The position numbers were made by a program, and so were the translations under genes. Under the pieces are notes generated by a model. That model saw nothing but the letters and a program-made list of their open reading frames with translations. It made no database searches and was not told where the DNA came from. DNA of 24,576 nt, taken from positions 1 through 24,576 of IMG/VR virus record IMGVR_UViG_3300006919_000418; one strand, 5' to 3'. The DNA is from a virus. Shown in pieces: positions 1 through 16,777 of the stretch; positions within the stretch are counted from its first letter, which is position 1, and each line of letters begins with the position of its first letter.

Positions 1-1562
1 GTGTACGATAGCCCCGATATCCCGTGGACCATCGCGATGTGCACGAGTTCCAGCGTGCCGCCCGTGCAGCCCGTGGGCGAGCCGGTGAGCGTCCAGGTCG
101 TCGATGTCACGGCACTTACCTGATAGGTGCCATCACATCCGCCAGTGGTGCCGGATACCAGCACAATCGGCGGCCAGTTCGCCGCGTAACTGTCATTGTT
201 CGTGCCGCTGGCGATCGTCGCCACGCCGCCGCTAATGCTGGTCAGTGAATACTGATACCCGTTGTCGTAGCCGTGATCGCTGCCAAACGTCAACACAGGC
301 TGCGAAACCTTCGTCGCCGACGTGAACTGAGCCGCGATCCGCCGATGGACGATGCCGCCCGACGTGTACGTGCCGCCATCGGTGAAGGCGTGCAGGTAGG
401 GCTTGAGCGTCTTCGACCCGATGACGTGCTGCCAGTAGTTGATGCTCGATGTCCGGGCCTGCGGATTGTTGCCGCCGTGGAACCATCGCGACTGCATCCC
501 CGGCGCGCGGACAATCGCAGTACCGTACTGGTCGGACGTGCCCTTGTCCGTGTATCGCTCAGCCACGAACGCGCTCGTCATCGTGATCGTTGCCGGCGAG
601 GCGCTGCTGACGCTGCTGATGGGCTCTAGCGGATAGGTCAACGTGGTGAAGTCGGGCCGCGCGATCCTGATTCGCTGGAAGCGGATGTTCTGCTTTCCCT
701 CGCACTCGATCAGGGGCCGCGCCAACGGCTGCGTTAGGTTCATCTCGATCCCGCCGATACCAGCCTCGGGATCAACCGAGCCGCCAAACGGTGCGTGCGC
801 GTCGGTGTTCGGGTACTCGCTGTAGACCAGCAGTTTGTTCGTCGCGTCCGTGATCGTCGGGCAAGTGTACTGATCCAGCGGCGAGGTTTCATGCTCTGGA
901 CGACATATTTGCCCGGCAGGGATCTTGACGCCATAGATGAGATTCGAGCCCGCCGCATCCATCGCGGTCTGCTGCGATTCCATCAAGGCATCGAGGTTCG
1001 TACACTCGCCGCCCGAAACCGTTACCGTTACCGTGTTGTCCAGGTCCGTCGCCGGGTCGATCTCCACAAAGGCGTTCGCGTGCGTGGGAGCAGTTGGTGC
1101 GGTCGGCGTTCCATCGCCTGCCGGCGTAGTGATCTCCAGGATCAAATCAGTACCAGCGCCGCCGCCGTCCGCGTCTACCGCTGGATCGCAGTTGGCCGTC
1201 AATCCGTTGCAGTCAATCGCCGCGATCTCGGTCTGGCAGTCTGTGTAATCGCTGTATGACGCTGAACCTGTGTCATATAGCCCAATGTCCACGAGGTAGG
1301 CCGTAGCCGGGTCCAGGTTCGTGACGAACGCCGATATGCCATCGCCCGTATCGCTTGGATCGTAGGCGTAGGTCGCCTCAGCCGTGAACGTCGCATTGTC
1401 AGTCAGTCGCAACCGCGCTAGCGTCACCGCGTCCGTGGGATTATCCCATTCCAGCTCCAGCGAAAACCCGCCCTGGCTCACCGATAGCAGTTTGATCGAG
1501 TCCGGGCAGACTTGCGCCGACATCGGGAGAGCGAGCAGAACTACTAGTAGGAGTTTCTTCAT
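1..1562 (-). CDS. Exported FnIII-containing fibre-like protein, partial at its 3' end
   Basis: The frame is open from an ATG at 1562 to the window edge (520 codons, no stop). The N-terminus MKKLLLVVLLALPMSA is a textbook Sec signal peptide with likely cleavage after MSA. Residues about 19-115 read as a fibronectin type III-like beta sandwich, with an S-x-E-L-E-W strand near its start and an N-L-D-P-A-T-A-Y-L-V turn and strand. The rest is Thr/Ser/Gly-rich and predicted beta, with pectate-lyase-like phrases (GVKIPAGQICRP, NIRFQRIRI), so a beta-helix or stacked-sandwich fibre is likely. Several cysteines occur, which suits an exported oxidised protein. The start overlaps the stop of the upstream gene as ATGA. 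Function is inferred from position and fold; it could be a receptor-binding, surface-modifying or adhesive protein. Confidence 0.8.
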   Translation of the reverse strand, partial: MKKLLLVVLLALPMSAQVCPDSIKLLSVSQGGFSLELEWDNPTDAVTLARLRLTDNATFTAEATYAYDPSDTGDGISAFVTNLDPATAYLVDIGLYDTGSASYSDYTDCQTEIAAIDCNGLTANCDPAVDADGGGAGTDLILEITTPAGDGTPTAPTAPTHANAFVEIDPATDLDNTVTVTVSGGECTNLDALMESQQTAMDAAGSNLIYGVKIPAGQICRPEHETSPLDQYTCPTITDATNKLLVYSEYPNTDAHAPFGGSVDPEAGIGGIEMNLTQPLARPLIECEGKQNIRFQRIRIARPDFTTLTYPLEPISSVSSASPATITMTSAFVAERYTDKGTSDQYGTAIVRAPGMQSRWFHGGNNPQARTSSINYWQHVIGSKTLKPYLHAFTDGGTYTSGGIVHRRIAAQFTSATKVSQPVLTFGSDHGYDNGYQYSLTSISGGVATIASGTNNDSYAANWPPIVLVSGTTGGCDGTYQVSAVTSTTWTLTGSPTGCTGGTLELVHIAMVHGISGLSY

Positions 1563-1942
1563 CGCGTCGAACCAAGCATGAATAGCAGGCCGGAATCTTG
1601 AACGTCGCAGGCGTCGCCCACTTGCGCCTCGCCGGTCGCGCATGTAGAGGCGTCGGCGTCTTGCGGGGTGGATGTCCGCGCTATCCAGTAGCGCCTCACA
1701 GCCGCCATGACGGACTTGTCAACAACTGGCGCGATCGTAAGCGCCCCTGATCCGTTCGCGCGGAATACCACGCACTCGCCGTCGCTACAGAGCAGCGTGC
1801 TGTCTTTGATGGCGATTGCTGGACCGCCAATGATCTCCCTCACGTTGGCCTCCAGCGCTCGGTCGGCTTGGCCTGCTGGCCATCGCGCTACTTCGCCAAA
1901 CGCCGAAACTGCCACCAGCAGTAGTAGTGCAAATCTCATCAT
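1559..1942 (-). CDS. Small exported protein with four cysteines, unknown function
   Basis: 127 aa with two consecutive ATG codons (1942 and 1939); the first shares its A with the upstream stop (TAATG), and GGGAG lies just ahead. The N-terminus MMRFALLLLVAVSAFG is a signal peptide with likely cleavage near AFG-EVA. The mature part has CSDGEC and a second pair, C-ATGEAQVGDA-C, both well spaced for disulfides. There are no catalytic motifs I recognise. It lies inside the run of signal-peptide genes and overlaps the next gene by 4 nt. It may be an accessory to its larger neighbours. Confidence 0.75.
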   Translation of the reverse strand: MMRFALLLLVAVSAFGEVARWPAGQADRALEANVREIIGGPAIAIKDSTLLCSDGECVVFRANGSGALTIAPVVDKSVMAAVRRYWIARTSTPQDADASTCATGEAQVGDACDVQDSGLLFMLGSTR

Positions 1943-2661
1943 TAACTCCCTGGGGTAAATCCGAGTACCACTTCTACATCAGTCGCGGGTGTGCCATGCA
2001 CGCCGTCGAAGTCGATACGCACAAAGTCGCCGGTTTCGAGTGTCTTGTCGGCGGTCGTACTGGTGATTGTGGCTGATGTTGAACTAGTCAAATCAACGGC
2101 CATCGTTAGATTGGTTGACAACATATCGGCTGCTGAATTGCAACCACTGCCCGCGCTGGGTGTACAGAGCGCTAGGTCGATATTGAGCGTGCCCGAGGTC
2201 GTCCCGCCCGTGAAGGCGCTTACGCGCACGCTCGTCAGCACATAGTTATTGAGTTCTGAGCCGACCGAGAACTTTGCTTTACCGTCTCCGGTGGTAGACG
2301 CAGCCGTGTCGTCAATCGGGATCGTAATGTAAACTATTAAGTCAGTGGAAGCTACAAACGTGGACTGACCACCACCCGTGACTGTAATCGGCCCAGGTGT
2401 TGAAATCGGACCATTGAGAATGGATTCCAAGCCTGCGTTTTGATAGACGCAAAATGCGTAGTATGCACCGCCGTCGTCAACTCCATCGCAATCCGTTACA
2501 GAACTGGCTCCAGTAATCTGAACCACTGTTCCCGGCTTAATCTGACCAGCAGATATCTGCGAAGCAATTTCATCGGCTGGCGCACGCAAGATGGCCGGGA
2601 CGCCGATTGTGTCGGCTTGACACAGGCCACACAGCGCCAATAGTAGGTATAGGGTTTTCAT
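1942..2661 (-). CDS. Exported tail-fibre-like beta protein
   Basis: 239 aa. MKTLYLLLALCGLCQA is a signal peptide; a cysteine lies near the cleavage site but it does not fit a good lipobox. Residues about 17-85 form a small domain with a cysteine pair (DCDGVDDGGAYYAFC). Residues about 120-239 resemble the beta-sandwich domains of phage tail fibres: alternating Thr/Ser/Val strands, an LETGDFVRIDFDGV segment and a final VEVVLGFTPG strand. A second cysteine pair (C-TPSAGSG-C) sits in this domain. The ATG overlaps the upstream stop as ATGA. The combination of a fibre-type domain with a secretion signal is unusual for a virion protein. The exact role is unknown. Confidence 0.75.
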   Translation of the reverse strand: MKTLYLLLALCGLCQADTIGVPAILRAPADEIASQISAGQIKPGTVVQITGASSVTDCDGVDDGGAYYAFCVYQNAGLESILNGPISTPGPITVTGGGQSTFVASTDLIVYITIPIDDTAASTTGDGKAKFSVGSELNNYVLTSVRVSAFTGGTTSGTLNIDLALCTPSAGSGCNSAADMLSTNLTMAVDLTSSTSATITSTTADKTLETGDFVRIDFDGVHGTPATDVEVVLGFTPGS

Positions 2662-3650
2662 CGTACTAGCACCACCCCGCTGCCCAGGGCATCCCCGTAG
2701 ATGTCTTGGACCGCCTGGTTTTGTTCGTTCGTCATTGCGCTGATTGGGTCAAACCACAAGATGTCGCCGTTGGTTACCCCTTGCAGCAATTCTTCGGTAT
2801 GGTCCAAGATGATCCCGCCACCCGTGGAAATCACTGAAAACGCCCCCGGATAAGCTGCCAACAGAGCGTCGGACGTAATCCTTGGAGTGAATCGAATGTC
2901 TGCGTAATCGGCCCCGAATTGGAAATAGCCGTCTCTGGTAACTTGGCTGTGCTCCGGGATAAACAGCACGTGAGGGAACGTCTTGCGAAGCCCTTGAAGA
3001 ACAGTGACCTCCATCAGGTTTTCCAGACCCTCAGCGATGAAATTGCTGTCGATGTAGAAAATGCGAGCGCCCCAACGATTCAAGCAATAGTCCGACTTGG
3101 CTTTGAGAACTGCCAACGCTTCGGCGTGTGTTGACGCTTGGCTTTGCGTTGGCGGGTCAACAGCAAGGCTCACTATCTGGGGTCGAATCGTAAAGCCAAT
3201 ATGATACCCGGCGTCGGTGAACTTGGCGAAAAAAGCATCCGCGATGGCGTCAAACTCCGGGGCCATCACGGGCAGCAGTTGGGGGTCTCCGGTGTACTTG
3301 ATCTCGATATGCTCAAGCCCTTCTACATCCCAGAACACAATGCCTTGCGGCTTCACGCCAGCGAATGAATCCATGCGAGCAACCACGGTATCCGCAAACC
3401 CCATCATGGCAGCCGAAAACGTAGCCGGGTCCAGTGCGTTCAGGCTGGACTGGCCTAACCACCCACGCGGATTAGTCTCGCTGGTCTGCACTTCGCTGGC
3501 TAGAAACATTCGCGCAAGCGGCCTCCGATCAGGCCACGGGCCAGCAGGGCCTCGATCACTAATCGCGGCGTTACCGATTACGCCCGACGCAATTACGGCC
3601 TGTCCTGGTAACACAGACAAGCCCACCAGCAACACTATGACGACTCTCAA
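2658..3650 (-). CDS. Exported TIM-barrel, glycoside-hydrolase-like protein
   Basis: I place the start at a TTG (3650) rather than the in-frame ATG at 3677. The TTG overlaps the upstream TGA as TTGA, has GGAG 6 nt upstream, and makes the protein (330 aa) begin MRVVIVLLVGLSVLPGQA, a clean signal peptide. The mature sequence alternates strands and helices as in a (beta/alpha)8 barrel: GIVFWDVEG (103-111), GFTIRPQ (152-158), RIFYIDSN (about 196-203) and VLFIPEHS (about 228-235). Acidic residues sit at strand ends (D108, E110, D201, E233) where glycosidase catalytic acids are typically found. I recall similar barrels in uncharacterised bacterial proteins, but I cannot assign a GH family. A surface-polysaccharide hydrolase is plausible; a non-catalytic binding barrel is the alternative. 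Confidence 0.7.
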   Translation of the reverse strand: MRVVIVLLVGLSVLPGQAVIASGVIGNAAISDRGPAGPWPDRRPLARMFLASEVQTSETNPRGWLGQSSLNALDPATFSAAMMGFADTVVARMDSFAGVKPQGIVFWDVEGLEHIEIKYTGDPQLLPVMAPEFDAIADAFFAKFTDAGYHIGFTIRPQIVSLAVDPPTQSQASTHAEALAVLKAKSDYCLNRWGARIFYIDSNFIAEGLENLMEVTVLQGLRKTFPHVLFIPEHSQVTRDGYFQFGADYADIRFTPRITSDALLAAYPGAFSVISTGGGIILDHTEELLQGVTNGDILWFDPISAMTNEQNQAVQDIYGDALGSGVVLVR

Positions 3651-4429
3651 TTTGCACTCCGGCTGGTCTCGCGCCACCTGTAATTTGTGCCGTCGTACAC
3701 ACAGGCGAGGCTGAGCGTGTCGCCTGATGTAGTCGTGAAGTTGCCCGCCAAGTCAAGATTGCCGGTCAGGTCACCCACCGTCAGGGAACCTGCGAATAGC
3801 AGAGTAAGCGGCTTGCCTGTCATGGTGGAATCGCAGGTGTTAATCGTGTCGATGTTCGTTGTTCCAGTGACGTAGGCGGCGTTCATTGTAGCCACAGAGA
3901 TCGTGGCCGCTGAAGCGATGTCTGCGCCCTGTTCAAACCGCGCTTCGTCGATACTGAAAACGCCGTCACTGCGTAATGTCGCTCTAAGAACGGCTGATGT
4001 GGCGTCGGTGTAGAACTCCAATGAGTTGCTTTGAGCGCGTAGATATACTCTGTTGTCCGACCCACTGAGCACTAAGTTTCGGCCAAGCGCAATGCGTGTA
4101 TGTCCACTGGTATCCACCCAGAAACGATCAGTGCCGGCTATCGCGATAGCAGCGGGTCCTGTGCCGCTGGCCACTGCAATACCGCCCTCGATGAATGGGA
4201 TTCGCCCGTTCGTCAACCGCGACCCAATAGCCGCCAAAATCTGCTCGTTGACGTAAGCGCCGCCGTTGTCTACGAGGATGTCGCCCGAGGCGCGAGACGT
4301 GATCGTAACGTCCGACAGGTCGTTTGCCGCTGAGGCCCCGCCCGACGTAGCCCCGCTGACGGCTTGGCCGAACGCCGACATTGGCATCAGTAAGGCCAAT
4401 AGAATCAATAGTTTGCGAACGGCCATCAT
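3647..4429 (-). CDS. Exported tail-fibre protein
   Basis: The frame is open from 4465, but AAGGAG stands 4 nt before an ATG at 4429 and 7 nt before a second at 4426. Starting there (260 or 259 aa) gives MAVRKLLILLALLMPMSAFGQA, a strong signal peptide, and avoids overlap with the co-chaperonin gene. After the signal comes NDLSDVTITSRASGDILVDN, a phrase typical of phage tail fibres. A Gly/Ser/Thr-rich beta region follows, and the C-terminus GDTLSLACVYDGTNYRWRETSRS matches the common fibre ending. Two cysteines (C in DTINTCDS and C in SLACVYDG) could pair. A fibre identity is well supported by these phrases; the signal peptide is the anomaly. It overlaps the next gene by 4 nt (TTGA). Confidence 0.8.
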   Translation of the reverse strand: MMAVRKLLILLALLMPMSAFGQAVSGATSGGASAANDLSDVTITSRASGDILVDNGGAYVNEQILAAIGSRLTNGRIPFIEGGIAVASGTGPAAIAIAGTDRFWVDTSGHTRIALGRNLVLSGSDNRVYLRAQSNSLEFYTDATSAVLRATLRSDGVFSIDEARFEQGADIASAATISVATMNAAYVTGTTNIDTINTCDSTMTGKPLTLLFAGSLTVGDLTGNLDLAGNFTTTSGDTLSLACVYDGTNYRWRETSRSAN

Positions 4430-4451: not shown

Positions 4452-4877
4452 TCAAGCCGCCTCATCTACCCGCACAGCGTCAGCCAGTACGCCGTCTTCC
4501 GCAACCATCGTGCAGAGCACTTCGGAAGTGAAGATGATCTTAAACTGGCCTTCCGTGCGGTTCTCCGTGAAGTCCACGCCTGCGTACTTCGAGAACATCA
4601 CGGCATGGCCCACTTCGTACTGCCCCTCGGGCACTTGGTCGCCCACCTTGATGATGATGCCCATCGAAGGAAGGGGCGTGTTTGACTTCTTGACATCATC
4701 TGGGATGAACAGGATGCTGTTCTCTTCGAGTTCGTCAATCTTCGTGCGCGGCTTGATGGGGCGAATGAGCAGCCTTTCGCCTCGCACCGTATCCACGCGG
4801 AGTTTCCCGCCGATGTGCTGAAGTTTGTGTACCTCCGCAATCGGGAGTTGTTTCATGAGTTCTGCCGGGTCGTTCAT
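4452..4877 (-). CDS. Phage-encoded GroES-type co-chaperonin
   Basis: 141 aa; the start is fixed by AGGAG 5 nt upstream of the ATG at 4877. Residues about 32-128 follow the GroES order: RGERLLIRPI (first strand), a mobile loop at about 44-70 whose ILF (55-57) aligns with the GroES IVL that contacts GroEL, then SMGIIIKVGD, GHAVMFSKYAGVDF (roof-to-barrel strand; GroES has DIVIF..GYGV) and SEVLCTMV (C-terminal strand; GroES EVLIM). It has about 30 extra N-terminal and 12 extra C-terminal residues relative to the roughly 97-aa bacterial protein. No GroEL is visible, so it presumably caps host GroEL, as T4 gp31 does. It sits between the ejection-protein block and the exported fibres. Clients are unknown; capsid or tail proteins are likely. 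Confidence 0.85.
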   Translation of the reverse strand: MNDPAELMKQLPIAEVHKLQHIGGKLRVDTVRGERLLIRPIKPRTKIDELEENSILFIPDDVKKSNTPLPSMGIIIKVGDQVPEGQYEVGHAVMFSKYAGVDFTENRTEGQFKIIFTSEVLCTMVAEDGVLADAVRVDEAA

Positions 4878-4885
4878 GCTATCTC

Positions 4886-5077
4886 CTAGTAGCCTTTCTT
4901 GCCGCCCTTGTTCAGGGCGATCGAGTTGCCCACCTTGCTAGCCGAGGCTGAGCCCGGTCGCACTGCGATCGAGTTCTTGACGGGCTTCGGTGAGCCTTTG
5001 CCTTTCCCCATCGGGGGGATCAGCGAGTTCTTTGCGCTAGTACCGCCAGCGCCTCCGGTTTTGCGTGCTCTGTTCAT
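4886..5077 (-). CDS. Tiny basic Gly/Lys/Ser-rich repeat protein
   Basis: 63 aa with AAGGAG upstream; its ATG overlaps the stop of the preceding gene (ATGA), and its own stop abuts the ribosome site of the co-chaperonin gene. It is rich in Lys, Gly and Ser with almost no acidic residues. It carries three spaced copies of a short motif: KNSLI (16-20), KNSIA (34-38) and GNSIA (50-54). It is probably disordered. I recognise no family. Basic charge and location after the ejection proteins allow a DNA-binding or virion-packaged role, but this is inference. Confidence 0.7.
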   Translation of the reverse strand: MNRARKTGGAGGTSAKNSLIPPMGKGKGSPKPVKNSIAVRPGSASASKVGNSIALNKGGKKGY

Positions 5078-7899
5078 TTCAGCAGTCTCCTTTTCACCAA
5101 CCTAAGAAACGGTGCAGGCTTGCCCTGGTAAGCATTCTTGTTCCGCCTGACGATCCGCTCCACTATGAGCTTTTTCAACTCGTCGGGTTTTGACTCCCAG
5201 CCAGGAGAGTTCATTAGCGGGGCCAAGTCCTTGTGGATCATCTTCCCAACGACTTCTTGTTCTAGCAGGTAGTCCTCATTGCTTTGCTCGTCCTCTTGGC
5301 GCGGCTTCGTGAGGCCCATGCCAAGTCGCTCCATCTCTGTCCGCACTCGATCGCCAGACTCCTTGCGCGGCATCCCTGGGTCGTAAGTGTGGCGGATGTC
5401 GGATTTAACCTCATCCCCAAAAGCGTCCCGCAGTGCTGGTAGGTCTTTACGCAGACCCGGCAACCGTTCCTTGACCGAATCAAGGACGCCGGCCCCCTTG
5501 AGGTAAGTTGTACGAACTTTATCGTCGGCGCCCCGCGCAAAATCAGCAACAATGGTAGGAACCCACGTTCCTAGCTGCTCTCGCAAGTAGGCCTTCGGAG
5601 CTGTAGCGGGAGATTCCATCACCCTGTCAATCGTCTCAGTTCCCTGTAAAAGCGGGAGATCCTTTAACCCTCTTATTGCCCCCTTTAGCAACAGGGACGA
5701 ACGCTTACTCTCGTCATCCATCTCCCTTGTGCTGTTTTCATACATTGACGCGCCCGTGATGAGAAGCGGCGCAGCCGGGGCGTACTCATTGAATTTCCGC
5801 CATTCGCCATCCGGAGTCTTGTACGACATCGGTTGCTTCCCTGATGCCATGTCAATAGCGCGCTCGCCGGGGGACTCCGCAGGGAATCCAGTCATCGTTC
5901 CCTTCGATGCCATCGTGTAGCCCATGTACATCAGCGCGCTTCCAGTCGCTCCCCTGCCGATTGCTTGCGATAGCGCTTTTTGCTGCTCTGGCGTGAACGA
6001 CTCGGCTATCATTTTGTGCGCCTCTTTGATAGAGCGCCCATTGCGAGTGCCATCCCATACGGCCCGGACTGCCGAGCCCTGCGCCTTGCCAACCTCAAGG
6101 GCTGTGTTCAATGGCGTGTACTCGATCGTGCGAGCGATGATGTTGGTCGGCGTTGTCACATATGGCATCACTAAGTCAAGGCTGACTCTCATCGCCTGCC
6201 CGCTTTGCTTGCCGGAGTTGATCCATGATGCCAGTTTGTTTTTGTTCGCTAACACAGCGTAGTCCGCTGCGTACATCGCATCGGCGGTCAAGTCCTTGGG
6301 CGGATTCGCGGCGAGTTGCTTGGCGTATGACGATACGCTCTCCCCAGACGGCAATTTGTTCTGGAGTTGCATGGTCTTTGCTCTTGTACGCGCACCGTCG
6401 TCCAGGGCTCTCTGGAAAGCATAGGAGCGAAATATTTTGTCTTCTGCGCCGAGTACCCGGAAGTTGCCATTTACCCACCCGTTGATAGCTTTATCAATTT
6501 TACCACCGCCAAACACTTTCGAGTTTAGTTCGCCATACCCCAGGTCGAACTTCTTTGCTGCATCCAGCGTCGTTCCGTATTTCCGAACTTCCCACGCCTC
6601 TTTGAGCCCCTGGGTTGCAGCGGCGTGCATTCCCCTGTGGACGTTCAGCCCAGGCGGCGCAATCGTGGACTGTTTAGAGAACATGCTAAAAGCCACATCA
6701 GCAATGTATTCAGGAATTTGCGAGACCTCTCGCGTTGCTGCAAATAAGGCGTTGCCGCCTAGATTGCGAGCGTGCGATTTAATGCCAGACACAAGCCCAG
6801 CCTTGCGGAACGCAAGAGCTACGTCAATTACGCCATGCTCCTCAAACTGGTTCATCCATTTGGCAAGAGCCAACTTGCCAAGGCTCTTGGCCTTGTCGTC
6901 CGTGGCGTCAGCAATCTGTTTGAGGATGCCATTCAACTCCAAGGCCTTGTCGCCCGGTAGCCGCCCACCCGCTTTCTGCGTTGCCCGCCCCAGCCAAAAC
7001 CCAGGGTCCGTCGTCTCCTCGGCTATTTGCCGCCAGACCCTCAAGCCTCTGCCGGCCTCAGCTCGTGCCCCTGTTTGGATGCCGACCAGTCTTGCAATGT
7101 CGTTCTCGGCGGCAGCGGCCTGAGCCAGCGACATTGTTTTCGTAGCTTCATCTACTGCACCCTGAGAGGACGCAGTGAATCTTTCGAGATCACCCATCCT
7201 GCTCTTGATCGCATCGCGCAGGGCCAAAGATGTAGCCTCATTAAATCCACCCGAGCCGGGTTTCGGCGTCTCCAGCAAGAACAGCGATTCGAGGTCTATC
7301 TTGTTGGCGTCCGCGCGAACCGCCGCATCCGGCAGGACGGCCTTGGGGTTCGGCAGCGCACCCGGAACTTCAGCCGGGGCCTGTGCATACTTCTCGATCA
7401 GACCCCGCAGACCCGCCTCGCCCTCATCTGACAACCCCATCTTGGAGAAGTTGATGTACTCATCAGCTAAAGACTTCGCTGCCTTCTTGCCGCCTTTAAG
7501 CGCAGCTTTAGTCCCCTTGATGGGGGCTGCTGCAATCGGGTTCATGAAGTCAGACGTATCGAAGTCTAAAGCCCCAGCAACAAACGGCTTAGCTGGCCCG
7601 AGCCAGTCTGGAAGTTGCTGCTCGATTTCCTTTTGATAATGCTCTGGAAACGCCCAGTCCACGATGTCGCCAGGGGCGGCTGCCAGCCTCTCCCCATATG
7701 ATTGATCCTTCCTCTTCTGATACGTCTCAAGGGCGTGAATGTCCAGGCCATTACGAACAGGCGGACGCGGAGGGGCGGGAGGCCCTACCGGGTCATCCTG
7801 ATAGAGCCACGGCACCATCTGCGGCGAAGGCACGGGAGCGCTTGCTGACTGCTGCATCAGCCGGTCCATTAACTCCTTTGCTGTGAGCCGAGTTGCCAC
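5074..7899 (-). CDS. Large internal virion (ejection-type) protein
   Basis: 941 aa from a GTG start directly after the upstream stop (TAA then GTG), with GGAAGGA upstream. The N-terminus is Pro-rich (about 22-50). The remainder is largely alpha-helical with Ala/Lys-rich stretches, for example helices around 225-300. A conserved-looking central section reads AGLVSGIKSHARNLGGNALF (367-386) followed by REVSQIPEYIADVAF; phrases of this kind occur in very large phage virion proteins and polyvalent-protein domains. Later come RVLGAEDKIFRSYAFQRAL and a Gly/Met-rich, weakly hydrophobic stretch (GSALMYMGYTMASKG). No lytic transglycosylase or protease motif is evident. As the largest gene, last of the block after the tail genes, it best fits a DNA-ejection protein; the assignment is by size, composition and position. 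Confidence 0.65.
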   Translation of the reverse strand: MATRLTAKELMDRLMQQSASAPVPSPQMVPWLYQDDPVGPPAPPRPPVRNGLDIHALETYQKRKDQSYGERLAAAPGDIVDWAFPEHYQKEIEQQLPDWLGPAKPFVAGALDFDTSDFMNPIAAAPIKGTKAALKGGKKAAKSLADEYINFSKMGLSDEGEAGLRGLIEKYAQAPAEVPGALPNPKAVLPDAAVRADANKIDLESLFLLETPKPGSGGFNEATSLALRDAIKSRMGDLERFTASSQGAVDEATKTMSLAQAAAAENDIARLVGIQTGARAEAGRGLRVWRQIAEETTDPGFWLGRATQKAGGRLPGDKALELNGILKQIADATDDKAKSLGKLALAKWMNQFEEHGVIDVALAFRKAGLVSGIKSHARNLGGNALFAATREVSQIPEYIADVAFSMFSKQSTIAPPGLNVHRGMHAAATQGLKEAWEVRKYGTTLDAAKKFDLGYGELNSKVFGGGKIDKAINGWVNGNFRVLGAEDKIFRSYAFQRALDDGARTRAKTMQLQNKLPSGESVSSYAKQLAANPPKDLTADAMYAADYAVLANKNKLASWINSGKQSGQAMRVSLDLVMPYVTTPTNIIARTIEYTPLNTALEVGKAQGSAVRAVWDGTRNGRSIKEAHKMIAESFTPEQQKALSQAIGRGATGSALMYMGYTMASKGTMTGFPAESPGERAIDMASGKQPMSYKTPDGEWRKFNEYAPAAPLLITGASMYENSTREMDDESKRSSLLLKGAIRGLKDLPLLQGTETIDRVMESPATAPKAYLREQLGTWVPTIVADFARGADDKVRTTYLKGAGVLDSVKERLPGLRKDLPALRDAFGDEVKSDIRHTYDPGMPRKESGDRVRTEMERLGMGLTKPRQEDEQSNEDYLLEQEVVGKMIHKDLAPLMNSPGWESKPDELKKLIVERIVRRNKNAYQGKPAPFLRLVKRRLLK

Positions 7900-15838: not shown

Positions 15839-16777
15839 TTAGGCGTCGGTCGAAGCCGTGCCGTTCCACTGTAGCGCTTGCTCGCCATCGAGGTTGACGA
15901 TCGGCAGGTTCGGACCAAACTGCATGTCCGCGCCCACGAGCGCTTCGGTGATGTTGGCCGCGTTGTCGGCCAGACGGCTGAAGATGTTGTTCACGAAACC
16001 AGTCGTGGTCGCAACAGCCGTGAAGATCACATCCGCCGAGTTGCGGTTCCGGGCAAGGTTGTAGCCGGCCGTCTTCGCGCCGATCTTCAGGTTCGTCGCC
16101 GCCGTGGTCACGTTCAAAATGGCCGCGACCGCGAAGTTGCCGTCGATATCGAAGTCGTCGATCTCGCAACCGTCACCGCCCACGATGTAGATGGCCGTAT
16201 CGGCTCCAGCAGCGGCAGCGCCGCGATGGACCCAGCCCTTGATCTTCAGGCGATCCGCGTTAGCGTCGGCGTTGATGCAGTCGGTTGCCTGCCCGGTCAC
16301 ATCCCGGTACTCGCAATTGACGATCGTGCAGTCCGCCGCGTTGATGTCGATCGGGAACACCAGGGCGTCAATGCCGCCCGTGAACAGGATGTTCTCGATG
16401 TAGATGTTGGCCGCGTCCACGTCCATGTCAGCCGTGGTGGCGGTCGTGAAGTTCACGGTCGGGCGCAGCGAGCCGGAGCCCAAACCGATGATCGAGATAC
16501 CGGCAACGTCCAGATCCAGGCCGCCGGCAGCCGAGACAGTCTCGACATGGCCCGGCATCGCGTAAATCACGTCGCCCTTGTTGGCCGTGCAGCGACCGAC
16601 CGCATAGTCGATCGAGGCGAACGGCTCATCAGGGTTGGTGCCGCGACCGGGAGAATCCGAGCCGGTGCTCGAATGCACGAAGAACACCGACCCAGTGGTG
16701 GTGTAGGGGAAGGAACCAGCGCCGACTTGCGGAATGCCGAAGCTCGAAACACCGTGAGGAAAAGCTGTCAGACCCAT
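15839..16777 (-). CDS. Right-handed beta-helix protein, capsid-associated candidate
   Basis: The frame is open from 16819, but AGGAG lies 6 nt before the ATG at 16777, giving 312 aa beginning MGLTAFPHGVSSFGIPQVG. After a short N-terminal arm and a VFFVHSSTGSD strand comes FASIDYAVGRCTANKGDVIYAMPGHVE, the typical entry to a pectate-lyase-like beta-helix. Regular rungs follow (AGISIIGLGSG, ADMDVDAANIYIENILFTG, AADCTIVNCEYRDVTG, DRLKIKGWVHRG, GDGCEIDDFDIDG). I know closely similar sequences as uncharacterised proteins beside phage capsid genes. Its place directly after the major capsid gene suggests a decoration or head-fibre protein rather than a tailspike. No catalytic residues for polysaccharide cleavage are apparent. 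Confidence 0.75.
   Translation of the reverse strand: MGLTAFPHGVSSFGIPQVGAGSFPYTTTGSVFFVHSSTGSDSPGRGTNPDEPFASIDYAVGRCTANKGDVIYAMPGHVETVSAAGGLDLDVAGISIIGLGSGSLRPTVNFTTATTADMDVDAANIYIENILFTGGIDALVFPIDINAADCTIVNCEYRDVTGQATDCINADANADRLKIKGWVHRGAAAAGADTAIYIVGGDGCEIDDFDIDGNFAVAAILNVTTAATNLKIGAKTAGYNLARNRNSADVIFTAVATTTGFVNNIFSRLADNAANITEALVGADMQFGPNLPIVNLDGEQALQWNGTASTDA

Follow-up and report, generated by a model that had tools for sequence, protein, structure and literature searches.

Tail fibres of phages are taken to fold and to attach within the cytoplasm. Exported phage proteins are known from T5 (Llp) and phi80 (Cor), whose exclusion proteins may act on receptors, as the proteins described here may, but are single small (lipo)proteins, unlike fibre-type cassettes. 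In Bacteroidetes, most substrates of signal peptidase I (SPI) expose a glutamine at +1, which is then cyclised (the Q-rule; PMC5837995, PMC10653852); the rule is reported as specific to this group, with scattered species of other groups showing high values, and Acidobacteria are absent from the text of the Q-rule paper (PMC5837995). Q-rule signal genes have also been described in P. gingivalis phages (Gln at +1 after a Sec signal), for which the authors propose a modification of the host surface (PMC10367356); these genes are cited in PMC10653852 as a phage use of the rule, and are described neither as fibres nor as a block. In a search of literature that was largely open-access, we found no paper on Sec signals as a feature of tail or virion fibres, and no description of the Q-rule signals on virion proteins of the phage discussed next.

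In Cellulophaga phage phi10:1 (KC821618), we observed five consecutive genes with Q-rule Sec signals (gp091-gp095) at the end of the tail operon, with the sites LSA/Q, SFG/Q, VSA/Q, LNA/Q and CFS/Q (a slash marks the predicted cleavage). The cassette comprises fibre, tailspike and pectate-lyase types: gp091-gp094 are annotated 'structural protein, experimental MS/MS', gp095 is a pectate lyase, and gp094 and gp092 have PHROG matches to tail fibre and virion structural families. When eight other virion-listed proteins of this phage were submitted to the signal rule detailed below, none was called. Furthermore, gp094 matches a PHROG tail fibre family over its entire length, signal included, and its signal together with the ~25 residues that follow is common to two further families (tail protein and pectate lyase); by this comparison its N-terminus appears to be a signal-plus-adaptor module. 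Among other isolates, a small protein with a Q-rule signal and PHROG matches to tail fibres is encoded by Flavobacterium phage FCL-2. The arrangement is not universal, since a relative of phi10:1 (Flavobacterium phage 11b) has at the fibre position a large protein without signal, and phi17:1 and phi12:1 gave zero calls by the signal rule. In Cellulophaga phage phi14:2, two adjoining signal-peptide genes (L037 9-1278), one of them annotated as OmpA-domain, lie outside the structural module.

A five-gene block with Q-rule signals

The window (the whole stretch of DNA analysed, a complete IMG/VR record of 24,576 bases) covers part of a tailed-phage genome, and its genes all read on the minus strand. 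Its nearest isolates by TerL (~24% identity) are the Zobellviridae podoviruses CW02 and Klyazma, which have a similar order of head and tail genes, but whose annotated fibres are without signal peptides, unlike the block of five consecutive, translationally coupled genes that runs head to tail from position 4429 to 3 of the window (Table 1). Neighbouring genes of this block overlap by 4, 4, 1 and 4 bases (1/2, 2/3, 3/4 and 4/5, respectively). The ATG of gene 1 (at 4429) is preceded by AAGGAG, and the start of gene 2 was revised to a TTG at 3650, a codon that follows a GGAG, shares bases with the gene 1 stop and yields the N-terminus MRVVIVLLVGLSVLPGQA. The GroES-like gene was recognised through Pfam Cpn10 (E 0.0019, below the cut-off) and PHROG co-chaperonin GroES (E 3e-4). 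After the capsid gene, a probable beta-helix protein (15839-16777; fold judged by eye) is encoded without a signal, so that, besides the block, the phage encodes a spike-like protein that is not exported.

Table 1. Genes and signal features of the window, and the analogous cassette of phi10:1 (positions are those of the window unless a contig is named; a slash marks the predicted cleavage site)
Feature	Position	Strand	Description
Gene order in the window			small terminase, large terminase (PHROG 38), portal (PHROG 1216), capsid
Capsid gene			PHROG 133/371, Pfam Phage_capsid_4
Genes after the capsid gene			connector and nozzle-position genes, internal virion protein, GroES-like gene, then the five-gene block
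Internal virion protein gene	5074..7899	minus	PHROG 6651 internal virion protein, E 1e-7; end of structural operon
GroES-like co-chaperonin gene	4452..4877	minus	just upstream of the block
Gene 1	3647..4429	minus	signal peptide MMAVRKLLILLALLMPMSAFG/QAV, then fibre-type protein; mature part 239 aa, 2 Cys
Signal peptide of gene 1	4367..4429	minus	protein identical in relative L005
Gene 2	2658..3650	minus	TTG start; signal peptide MRVVIVLLVGLSVLPG/QAV, then 314 aa of no known family; 1 Cys
Gene 3	1942..2661	minus	signal peptide MKTLYLLLALCGLC/QAD, then 225 aa; 4 Cys
Gene 4	1559..1942	minus	signal peptide MMRFALLLLVAVSAFG/EVA, then 111 aa; 4 Cys
Gene 5	3..1562	minus	runs off the left edge; signal peptide MKKLLLVVLLALPMSA/QVC, FN3-like domain, ~400 aa more; 10 Cys
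phi10:1 signal cassette	L039 41847-48878		MS/MS-annotated structural proteins with Q-rule signals

Signal peptides were called by a rule that combines h-region hydropathy, n-region charge and a von Heijne matrix; the calibration of this rule, and not its absolute score, is to be trusted. It recognised 17 of 20 E. coli proteins labelled as exported; among other E. coli proteins it called 2 of 61, and in three phages 4 of 215 proteins, with no annotated fibre among them. The sequence-only reading had described five consecutive genes each with a Sec-type signal and had proposed signal prediction on all of them; the calibrated rule bears this out, calling 5/5 N-termini in the block and 0/20 in the remaining genes of the window. 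The five N-termini possess a basic n-region, a short hydrophobic h-region (9-13 residues) and small residues at -3/-1, with c-regions that are weak by the von Heijne matrix in genes 2 and 3. The sites fall between a small residue and Gln in genes 1, 2, 3 and 5 (AFG/Q, LPG/Q, GLC/Q and MSA/Q, respectively) and before Glu in gene 4 (AFG/E), which gives a +1 residue of Gln in four cases and Glu in one; of the cleavage sites proposed earlier, those of genes 2 and 3 had to be moved, being better placed before Q. A lipoprotein (SPase II) reading was rejected, as none of the five N-termini has a lipobox ending in Cys at +1. Moreover, cysteine makes up 1.5% of the residues in the mature block proteins versus 0.5% in the remaining window proteins (n = 20; Fisher p = 0.0002).

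The signal layout and the Gln at +1 are those of Bacteroidetes Sec/SPI substrates, with the difference that the latter are host proteins and the former phage proteins, the host of which need not belong to Bacteroidota. This match to a host export style argues that the signals of the block work as cleavable ones.

Conserved signals, exchanged bodies and fibre resemblances

The contigs of two close relatives (TerL 92%, portal 99%) break off within gene 1. In the comparison of gene 1 with one of them (L005), the signal and the ~55 residues that follow are kept, while the remainder is unrelated or replaced; the first 20 aligned codons contain 2 synonymous and 0 non-synonymous changes, and the next 30 codons 7 and 3, respectively. 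This pattern is that of a fibre whose N-terminal part is fixed and whose tip is exchanged, a comparison that applies to gene 1 only, the contigs of the relatives ending before genes 2-5. The signals, the position of Gln or Glu, the order of the genes and the conserved signal-plus-adaptor of gene 1 with its replaced body can all be read directly in the sequences. All three contigs of this lineage (the window at its left edge, L004 and L005) stop inside the fibre block, which is probably hypervariable and breaks the assembly.

Related phages were also searched for the same arrangement, as had been suggested, and a distant relative (L018; portal 23% identical; terminase, portal and capsid in the same PHROGs as those of the window) was found to harbor three Q-rule signal genes in its structural operon: one before the portal gene, a second immediately behind the capsid gene, and a third for a long protein with the motif GGAVGQVQYNNSGAFGG, which we take to be of fibre type (sites CLG/Q, MYS/Q and CFT/Q). 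The long protein had no PHROG match, and a sequence scan with it returned solely itself. A further Q-rule signal gene (site ASA/Q) is present in a close relative (L009 1326-1655), so that Gln occupies +1 in all four of these additional signal genes. The L009 gene encodes a small secreted-type protein (MKQIILMAVFAVAASA/QVYGPQPRPIMPPPP) that has ~40 residues in common with the N-terminus of a signal-less virion protein of the window (9333-7900), and by this similarity it would be a paralogue, in secreted form, of a portion of what is probably a structural protein. A contig that turned up through a fortuitous match has, a short way behind its capsid-like gene, a gene (L006 11173-11718) that likewise starts with a hydrophobic N-terminus.

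Taken together, host-type Q-rule signals that are kept while the fibre body changes, on cysteine-rich proteins, give good support to export through the host Sec system, and we regard Sec export and cleavage of the block proteins as likely on this sequence evidence.

As for the nature of the block proteins, the sequence-only reading had considered all five as fibre-like, a description that suits gene 1 (through weak matches at both ends), extends in gene 5 to an FN3-like N-terminus only, and finds nothing to sustain it in genes 2-4. In gene 1, the region behind the signal is similar to parts of tail fibres from cyanophages and other phages; over 35 residues it shares 54% identity with a tail fibre segment of Synechococcus phage S-WAM2 (E 0.003). 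Its C-terminal 90 aa are 38% identical to the terminal part of the tail fibre of Alteromonas phage XX1924 (E 0.002). Gene 5, after its signal, was modelled (AlphaFold2 and Foldseek) as an FN3-like sandwich with a TM of ~0.6-0.7 on the target, in a model of low confidence (pLDDT ~60 over the FN3-like part and 36 overall); it also has a weak Pfam match to Pur_ac_phosph_N, and no match in viral contigs or annotated phages. Genes 2-4 gave no family matches (Pfam and PHROG among the searches) and no known relatives in what was searched; for gene 3 this covers annotated phages, and for gene 2 viral contigs, genome contigs and annotated phages. The 'glycosidase-like' character earlier attributed to gene 2 is unsupported, with no match in Pfam, PHROG, NCBIfam or PDB; its single-sequence AlphaFold2 model is unreliable (pLDDT 43) and the Foldseek matches of this model were discarded as meaningless.

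Probable destination of the block proteins

We consider the block to represent, with a probability of roughly 0.55, a set of Sec-exported and processed fibre-type proteins, that is, virion parts whose maturation is extracytoplasmic and whose attachment takes place at lysis. The five genes would form a late cassette, each precursor of which would be targeted to the host Sec translocon and cut by host signal peptidase I before Gln (or Glu); the mature N-terminus would probably be capped as pyroglutamate and disulphides probably formed in the periplasm, and the mature proteins, most likely receptor- or polysaccharide-binding fibres, would be added to the tails when lysis opens the inner membrane. 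We infer that cleavage does take place, that folding is periplasmic, that attachment has this timing and site, and that the products of genes 2-5 end up as that of gene 1 does. This reading draws on the 5/5 versus 0/20 calls, the Q/E at +1, the conserved signal, the L018 genes, the cysteine enrichment, the fibre similarities of gene 1 and the MS/MS records of phi10:1, the last of which extend the virion destination to the block by analogy.

The strongest competitor, which we hold to be possible though distinctly less probable, is that the proteins are exported without becoming part of the virion, and remain in the periplasm, on the cell surface or among the debris of lysis, to bind the phage's own receptor or matrix, to block superinfection or to keep progeny off the debris in a manner similar to T5 Llp. 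Identical export signals would be expected in this case, a variable fibre-like C-terminus could track a receptor, the Q-rule genes of P. gingivalis phages have been proposed to modify the host surface (PMC10367356), and FCL-2 and phi14:2 have single Q-rule genes outside the structural block; against it stand the location of the five-gene cassette in a structural operon, the conserved adaptor-like stretch after the signal and the MS/MS virion records for the analogous cassette of phi10:1. These records could, in turn, reflect co-purified exported protein, and the virion reading is further weakened by gene 1 alone being fibre-like by sequence, by the lack of convincing homology to phi10:1 and by the signal-less protein of 11b. 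The earlier interpretation is borne out in part: Sec export stands (on the Q-rule signals, the conserved signal and the richness in cysteine), and the roles in masking, exclusion or matrix remodelling during infection are conjectural. That the N-termini remain uncleaved, as anchors or assembly tags of virion proteins made in the cytoplasm, had been offered as an alternative and would be compatible with the virion presence in phi10:1; we judge it improbable, as h-regions of such length fall short of what most anchors need, as the small-residue/Q or E sites that follow them fit a host-type Q-rule and resemble cleavage sites, and as the cysteine enrichment fits an oxidising compartment. Even though the predictor is home-made, wrong starts or chance hydrophobic N-termini are a very improbable source of the pattern, given that the calibrated rule calls ~2% of phage genes, that the starts are coupled (with a Shine-Dalgarno sequence before some of them) and that there is conservation in relatives.

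The likeness of the block to the cassette of phi10:1 extends across phages that differ in family and in tail genes, phi10:1 having a Bacteroidota host. As sequence comparison gave no convincing homology between the proteins of the window and those of phi10:1 (best E 0.004), the arrangement probably arose or was assembled more than once. These observations suggest that some phage fibres cross a host membrane before joining the virus. More broadly, and tentatively (we would place it somewhat below even odds), some tailed phages of Q-rule bacteria may make fibres or spikes as Sec precursors that mature in the periplasm, acquire disulphides there and are fitted at lysis, an extracytoplasmic branch of assembly present in unrelated lineages. 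Fibre cassettes with signal peptides in phages of separate lineages, one of which has recorded virion proteomics, would imply a tailed virion that is built in part outside the inner membrane; this would permit disulphide-bonded adhesins and tie the evolution of fibres to the export rules of the host.

The Q-rule as an indication of the host

For uncultured phages, the Q-rule may furthermore serve as a sequence marker of host lineage. A search of bacterial genomes with the portal protein, for prophages or a host, yielded no match. The window has a GC content of 59%, and 11 of its 20 genes have a Shine-Dalgarno match of at least 4 bases (versus 13% expected), features that speak against a typical Bacteroidota host. 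Small-residue/Q sites were observed in 23 of the 28 signal-called ORFs of Granulicella (Acidobacteriota; 250 kb of the Granulicella tundricola plasmid pACIX901, L025-L029), as compared with 8 of 26 in E. coli; exported proteins of Acidobacteriota, as seen in this one plasmid, follow the Q-rule. The host would be Bacteroidota-like or Acidobacteriota-like, the latter being weakly favoured by the Shine-Dalgarno use and the GC content.
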